Below, one piece after another: positions 37,726 through 50,084 of a DNA stretch of 63,314 nt (position 1 is the first letter of the stretch; every line of letters begins with the position of its first letter). This stretch comes from Thermoleophilia bacterium (GTDB taxonomy: Bacteria > Actinomycetota > Thermoleophilia > Gaiellales > Gaiellaceae): contig SHVL01000005.1 in the NCBI GenBank assembly GCA_009694305.1, forward strand, positions 1-63,314, given 5' to 3'. The position numbers and the translations under genes were made by a program. Below the pieces are notes generated by a model that worked only from the letters and a program-made list of their open reading frames with translations, did not search any database and was not told the origin of the DNA.

Positions 37726-38691
37726 CTACGGGGTCTTCACGTTCGCCGCCCCGGGGGTCGGGGTCGTCGTGAACGTCCAGTCGGCCGCCGCGTTGCCCGT
37801 GTCCGATCCGTCAGGGATCCGTGCGAGGACCCCCTCGACCGTGTTCGAGTCCGCGACGTCAACCGGGAGCATCGTCCCTTCGACGAGGTCGAACACCCCG
37901 GTGCCGATCGTCGCTGCGTGGATCGCCCCCTCGTAGGAGAGTGCGTCGAGAAGGGTGTCCGTGGCCGTATCGACGAGCGCGAGGCCATCCGGAGCCCCGT
38001 TCTGGGGATCGACGGCGACCACGATCTTCGCTCCCACGGCAAGGGAGCCGGTCAGCGCCCTGCGCGCGTACTCGGCGCTGTCGCCGCCGTTGACGAGCAC
38101 GAGTGCGATGCCGTCGAGGACGGCTGCTGCCGTACCGACATTCGCGATTTCGACAAAGCCACCGGTGTCGGCTCCGACCTGGTCGTAGTCCACCTCGTTG
38201 ATCACGAGACGCGCACTCGCCGGGGGTGGAGGCGGCGGAGGCGGAGGCGTGCCGCCGGTCTCACAGGTGAGCGTGATCAGGTCGGTTGCCGTGGAGCCGA
38301 CCTCGACCTGACCGGCCACACCGTCGAAGGACGTGCACGGCGTACCGGCAAGCCCACCAACCGAGTTGAGTGCGGCGCCGGAATCTCCCTTTGGGCCAGC
38401 CGGGCCAGCCGGGCCGGCCGGGCCAACTGCGCCCGCTGCGCCCTGAGCGCCTGTATCGCCTCCGGGGCCCGCAACGCCCGCCGGGCCGGCCGGGCCCTCC
38501 ACGTTCCACGAGAGATACACCTCGTTGCGCTTGCATGCGTTCGGGTTGAAGACGATCCGCACGAGGCCATGACGGACGTTGCGGCAGGCGTCGATGGTCG
38601 TCGGGGGGTCGCCGGCTGCGGTTGCCATTGCCGCTACACCCGCAACCACGGTGGCCGCAAGACCTGCGACCGTGAGCACGTGCTTGTTCAC
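37726..38691 (-). CDS. Secreted protein with collagen-like Gly-X-Y repeats and a lamin-tail domain
   Basis: A 321-residue exported protein. Residues 1-25 form a Sec signal (a hydrophobic run ending AAMATAAGD). A short cysteine-bearing segment precedes a collagen-like stretch of Gly-X-Y triplets near residues 70-105 (GPAGPAGVAGPGGDTGAQGA and on). A second cysteine pair, a nine-proline run, and a lamin-tail domain (LVINEVDYDQVGADTGGFVE) to the end follow. Lamin-tail domains bind DNA or matrix components in secreted bacterial proteins. The GTG start at 38691 has GAGGAG about eight bases before. A cell-surface or matrix role is inferred from the architecture. Confidence 0.88.
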   Translation of the reverse strand: MNKHVLTVAGLAATVVAGVAAMATAAGDPPTTIDACRNVRHGLVRIVFNPNACKRNEVYLSWNVEGPAGPAGVAGPGGDTGAQGAAGAVGPAGPAGPAGPKGDSGAALNSVGGLAGTPCTSFDGVAGQVEVGSTATDLITLTCETGGTPPPPPPPPPASARLVINEVDYDQVGADTGGFVEIANVGTAAAVLDGIALVLVNGGDSAEYARRALTGSLAVGAKIVVAVDPQNGAPDGLALVDTATDTLLDALSYEGAIHAATIGTGVFDLVEGTMLPVDVADSNTVEGVLARIPDGSDTGNAAADWTFTTTPTPGAANVKTP

Positions 38692-49829: not shown

Positions 49830-50084
49830 CTATGTCTTCGTGAGGCGCTCGCGCAACAGCGGCAGCACGTCGTCGGGCTCCGGATAGCGCCCCAGCATCG
49901 ACTTCGTGAACACCAGCTCGCCGTCGAGATGGACGTCGAAGATCCCGCCCACGCCGGGAACGACCTCGAGGACGTCGATCATGCCTCCCCACTCCTCCAG
50001 GATGCGCGCCACCAGACCGGCGGCGTTCGGCCACGCGGTTCAGGGAACGCAGTACTCGATACGGAAGCGGTGCCGGTCTGCCAT
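49830..50084 (-). CDS. Rdx/SelW-like thioredoxin-fold selenoprotein with in-frame UGA
   Basis: An 84-residue protein read from ATG 50084 through an in-frame TGA at 50042-50040 to TAG at 49830. The N-terminus is RFRIEYC12-V-P-U15, so the UGA sits exactly at the second position of the C-x-x-C/U motif of the SelT/SelW/SelH (Rdx) family. After it comes a complete Rdx body: VARILEEWGGMIDVLEVVPG, VGGIFDVHLDGELVFTKSML, then GRYPEPDDVLPLLRERL. A hairpin with loop GGUCU lies 15-33 bases after the UGA. The family has redox roles. A stop mutation of TGC is the alternative, but the hairpin and the otherwise intact gene favour selenocysteine. SelA/B/C/D genes are not in the window. Confidence 0.8.
50007..50025 (-). 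promoter_or_regulatory. Candidate bacterial SECIS hairpin
   Basis: On the minus strand, CGCCGCC-GGTCT-GGTGGCG forms a 7-bp stem (one G-U pair) with a five-base loop. The loop begins 21 bases after the UGA. The E. coli fdhF element has the same GGUCU string in its SelB-bound loop, about 18 bases after UGA. A two-base bulge and two more pairs can extend the stem below. Confidence 0.7.

Follow-up and report, generated by a model that had tools for sequence, protein, structure and literature searches.

The delivery of Sec-tRNA-Sec by SelB at a hairpin with a GGUCU loop has been established for the fdhF gene of Escherichia coli, in which the apical loop of the SECIS element lies about 20 nt past the UGA codon, as it does in the gene described here. 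The limits given for bacterial SECIS (bSECIS) elements are a loop of 3-9 nt, a stem of 4-16 bp, a G within the first two loop positions, a spacing of 16-37 nt, and an MFE of at most -7.5 (PMC13188914). The SelW-like proteins are catalogued bacterial selenoproteins, with ten members listed in PMC1794560, including those of Geobacter, Desulfotalea, and Symbiobacterium (the last of which was at that time placed in the Actinobacteria); according to the same paper, Cys homologues of these proteins are few or absent in organisms that use Sec. Rdx proteins with a CxxU motif are also contained in a more recent selenoprotein list, and the SelW-like family was one of the most abundant in samples from the ocean (PMC9312934). 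A literature search for selenoproteins of the class Thermoleophilia found no paper on this subject.

Here, a SelW-like (Rdx family) gene of 84 codons was located at 49830..50084 on the minus strand of the window, i.e., the whole 63,314-nucleotide stretch of Thermoleophilia DNA that was analysed, which belongs to an assembly of 2.47 Mb with 97% completeness. The preliminary description had placed a selenoprotein gene at exactly these coordinates; its strand, however, has to be corrected, because the gene runs from 50084 down to 49830. A plus-strand reading of the same interval was rejected, since the open frame there is unrelated. Translation bore out the further description of the gene: it begins with ATG at 50084-50082, ends with TAG at 49832-49830, and carries one in-frame TGA, which is codon 15 (50040..50042, minus strand) and lies in the motif C12-V-P-UGA. 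With this TGA read as selenocysteine (U), the product is MADRHRFRIEYCVPUTAWPNAAGLVARILEEWGGMIDVLEVVPGVGGIFDVHLDGELVFTKSMLGRYPEPDDVLPLLRERLTKT, followed by the stop codon. Two genes on the same strand lie 3' of it in the window and look by eye like ABC transporter genes.

The family of this protein was assigned by profile searches. The Rdx model PF10262 matched with 51.1 bits (cut-off 22.6) over its positions 3-73 of 74, and TIGR02174, which describes SelT/SelW/SelH proteins, matched with 41.5 bits (cut-off 34.2). The Rdx match covers the sequence on either side of the TGA (43.3 and 51.1 bits in two profile searches); because the profile matches extend over residues 8-78, the TGA is inside one domain, and this is more telling evidence than the hairpin by itself. 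The top NCBIfam model was NF041051 (SelTWH_Campy), but the score of 58.1 bits is below its cut-off of 88 bits, indicating that the protein is not a member of this equivalog. The CxxC/CxxU active site that defines the Rdx/SelW family is present as C12-V-P-U15. The closest solved homologues are SAV_2001 of Streptomyces avermitilis (PDB 3dex, E 3.7e-11) and similar Cys-containing Rdx proteins, and in 3dex, 2fa8, and 2ojl a Cys is aligned to the position of the UGA codon, which agrees with the earlier proposal that the UGA occupies the Cys/Sec site of an Rdx gene. Since such solved homologues exist, we regard the family as settled; they also suggest, by homology, a thioredoxin-like fold for the protein.

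Downstream of the UGA, a candidate bacterial SECIS hairpin occupies 50007..50025 of the minus strand, in which the stem strands CGCCGCC (50025-50019) and GGUGGCG (50013-50007) enclose the loop GGUCU (50018-50014). It has seven pairs, one of them G-U, and begins at the 15th base after the UGA (14 bases between), just as had been described. Folded in isolation, the hairpin has an energy of -13.2 kcal/mol (z -3.15); with its 5-nt loop beginning with GG, its seven pairs, and a distance of 21 nt from UGA to loop, it lies within the bSECIS limits cited above (PMC13188914). When a 45-nt stretch including the UGA was folded, a competing structure was favoured (-16.6 kcal/mol); however, the bases adjacent to the UGA would be in the ribosome during decoding. 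The chance occurrence of such an arrangement was estimated in Markov random sequence of the window's composition, counting each TGA that has, 16-37 nt farther on, seven pairs closing an RGUCU loop. About 0.05 such matches are expected per strand of the window, while two were seen, namely that of the SelW-like gene and one other on the minus strand at 38690, whose frame is not a plausible gene.

The SelW-like gene was then compared with its relatives; those that are named come from metagenome assemblies bearing the labels Thermoleophilia, Actinobacteria or Actinomycetota. Rdx was matched in 63 of 151 neighbourhood genomes, with exactly one in-frame TGA wherever the match is full-length; three of these genomes (G002, G026, and G069) have two Rdx genes each, every one with one TGA, so that two SelW-like genes can coexist. 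In a class-wide sample of 399 genomes, 74 match Rdx, 72 of them with a single in-frame TGA and two without a stop. A phylum-wide sample of 396 genomes yielded 56 matches, comprising 40 with the TGA, one partial match, and 15 full or nearly full matches without a stop, several of them in large genomes, which are presumably Cys forms. All 31 loci that were inspected, including that of the window, show a single TGA in CxxU followed by a hairpin. The loop is always [AG]G[TC]CT and starts 21 or 24 nt past the UGA. Two types of protein could be distinguished, i.e., CVPU with ALPNA, to which the window protein belongs, and CP[TV]U with GYD; identity to the window protein is 66-71% for three relatives of the former type versus 35-39% for two of the latter. 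No relative of the gene was found in the viral contigs searched.

The hairpin also shows signs of covariation. In 21 distinct hairpins, the stem pairs are standard in 95.9% of cells, compared with 84.6% after shuffling and 31-63% in slid controls; double changes occur in 13 cells, and the first and last stem pairs alternate between G-C and C-G among the relatives. As the sequences are both related and coding, these figures are supportive and do not amount to a probability, because shared ancestry inflates the counts. The coding part behind the SECIS (49833..50006, minus strand) retains the conserved sequence FDVHxDGELVFxKxMLGRYPxPDDVLPL, and dN was lower than dS after the UGA in seven of seven comparisons, with dN/dS (about 0.25 to 0.7) only moderately below 1. 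These data bear on whether the TGA marks a decayed gene, i.e., a pseudogene in which the TGA arose by mutation of a Cys codon or reflects an error of sequencing or assembly. Where a draft assembly shows just one internal stop, such a reading is always available; however, dozens of genomes from many genera, each assembled separately, have the TGA at this very codon, no further stop is present, and the downstream sequence and hairpin are conserved. Decay is thus refuted in practice by the conservation of the TGA in relatives, and we consider it extremely improbable. Loss of the part of the gene 3' of the UGA, which had been named beforehand as a finding that would speak against a selenoprotein, was seen in none of the relatives inspected, and the homologue alignment that had been proposed as a check showed UGA in CxxU to be kept in relatives and Cys in the solved homologues.

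The search of the rest of the genome for sel genes, likewise proposed in the preliminary description, found all four of them, so that the other finding named beforehand as speaking against a selenoprotein, a genome devoid of SelB/SelC machinery, does not apply. The selA gene (C66:29114-30388, 510 bits), selB (from about C66:31157, 351 bits), and a tRNA-Sec gene (selC) with a UCA anticodon (C66:34739) are clustered on one contig, while selD (C5:7628-8539, 355 bits) is on another; selA and selB score above their cut-offs. The SelB protein has the GTPase, SelB beta-barrel, and SelB winged-helix domains, with the C-terminal winged helix matched by PF09107. A second strong match to the tRNA-Sec model, on contig C90, was identified by ARAGORN as tRNA-Ser and discarded. 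Within the cluster (L048:3103-8832 on C66), selA, a gene for an HpcH/HpaI aldolase, selB, and, farther on, the tRNA-Sec gene all point in one direction, with the aldolase gene sitting between selA and selB; a short opposite-strand ORF just before the tRNA-Sec gene (L048:8191-8667) resembles by eye a PAS/LOV sensor domain.

Across the 151 genomes, the machinery tends to accompany the gene: selA was found in 49 of the 63 genomes with a TGA-containing Rdx gene versus 42 of the 88 that lack one (Fisher p 0.0002); when the count is restricted to gene-bearing genomes with a completeness of at least 90%, 22 of 25 have selA. A recognisable selA was absent from the other 14 of the 63, and selB reached its cut-off in none of these 14. 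All 14 are fragmented drafts, and because selA, selB, and selC form one cluster in the window's genome, the loss of a single contig could eliminate all three, which would explain the exceptions. Three of the 14 (G028, G032, and G108) are nevertheless at least 90% complete; in these, either contigs are missing or the genes are relics after the loss of Sec decoding.

A second selenoprotein gene was found in the same genome. It encodes a formate dehydrogenase alpha subunit (G000:C4:46232-48103, locus L068) and contains a single in-frame TGA; the hairpin CGTCGTC-GGTCT-GGCGACG comes next, with its loop 18 nt after the UGA. The GGUCU loop is thus common to the SelW-like and formate dehydrogenase hairpins, whose stems differ, and its presence in two genes that are not related to each other, within one and the same genome, lends strong independent support to its being a target of SelB. 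When the genome was searched with a SECIS covariance model, only the window gene, which is in the training set, scored well (38.5 bits), and the remaining matches (the next at 18.7 bits) included no convincing selenoprotein; since the formate dehydrogenase SECIS was missed, the model is evidently too narrow.

These findings also concern the possibility that the UGA is decoded by means other than SelB and tRNA-Sec, i.e., by a suppressor tRNA or after reassignment of the codon to Trp or Cys in this lineage. UGA reassignment does exist in other lineages. Here, however, TGA terminates other genes of the lineage, e.g., the SelW-like genes of L003, L007, and L008, the genome contains tRNA-Sec, SelA, and SelB, and a SECIS hairpin follows the UGA in both the SelW-like and the formate dehydrogenase gene, making such decoding highly implausible.

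A further alternative is that the UGA terminates translation, so that the locus consists of two small ORFs or undergoes programmed truncation, with the 3' part made from an internal GTG. An in-frame GTG is indeed present (50010..50012, minus strand) and would open a 60-codon ORF, which, going by the sequence, may be where a conventional gene caller would start a shortened gene without the active site; genes of this kind are expected to be truncated or passed over by ordinary gene callers. Against this stand the CxxU active site, which would be cut off from the remainder of one domain, and the near-fixed spacing between hairpin and UGA, which termination does not need. We consider this alternative very unlikely, if slightly less so than decay of the gene or decoding without SelB; in selenium-starved cells the UGA may still act as a stop, as a side effect.

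The gene is thus almost certainly a genuine selenoprotein gene of the SelW/Rdx family, in which UGA codon 15 is decoded as selenocysteine via SelB and the GGUCU hairpin; the machinery, the conserved UGA in CxxU, and the conserved hairpin all support the real selenoprotein that the preliminary description had claimed. In the proposed mechanism, SelA and SelD would make Sec-tRNA-Sec, and SelB carrying it would most likely bind the GGUCU-loop hairpin just 3' of the UGA, by analogy with fdhF, whereupon a ribosome at codon 15 would read through the UGA and insert selenocysteine in place of terminating. The product, which is predicted to contain selenium, would be a small redox protein of the thioredoxin-like type whose active site is Cys-Val-Pro-Sec, and it would probably act as a thiol/selenol oxidoreductase on putative redox partners. 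The genes flanking the SelW-like gene vary among relatives and so suggest no partner.

Compared with E. coli fdhF, the SelW-like gene has the same GGUCU loop but different stem sequences, and its loop is 21 nt from the UGA instead of 18 nt; the formate dehydrogenase alpha gene of the window's genome is identical to fdhF in both loop and distance (18 nt). The likeness to fdhF that had been pointed out earlier is well founded, as a 37-base fdhF element with GGTCT is present in 5,368 of 5,426 E. coli genomes, with the fdhF annotation in the rows shown. Compared with its solved relatives of the SAV_2001 (3dex) type, which have Cys at this site, the Thermoleophilia gene has UGA. With the bacterial SelW-like selenoproteins (Rdx, pfam10262) it shares the family, the CxxU motif, and the encoding of Sec by UGA. 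Because SelW-like CxxU selenoproteins have been catalogued since 2005-2006, the family, motif, and mechanism were already known; the gene is not of a new kind and alters no concept. Within the known kind it is a new member, found in the class Thermoleophilia of the Actinobacteria; new as well are the conserved SECIS and the Sec form of the protein being near-universal in this family of Thermoleophilia. The little-studied class thereby gains a selenoprotein with good support and a lineage that decodes Sec, and the clade-wide set with covarying SECIS elements can serve annotation and help to define the bacterial SECIS as it occurs in actinobacteria. There is about an even chance that Rdx occurs in the Thermoleophilia family almost only in the Sec form, in two lineages (CVPU-ALPNA and CP[TV]U-GYD) that differ in loop spacing and both use a SECIS with an [A/G]GUCU loop; if so, this family would be a good natural system for studying what keeps the Sec of SelW from being replaced by Cys.
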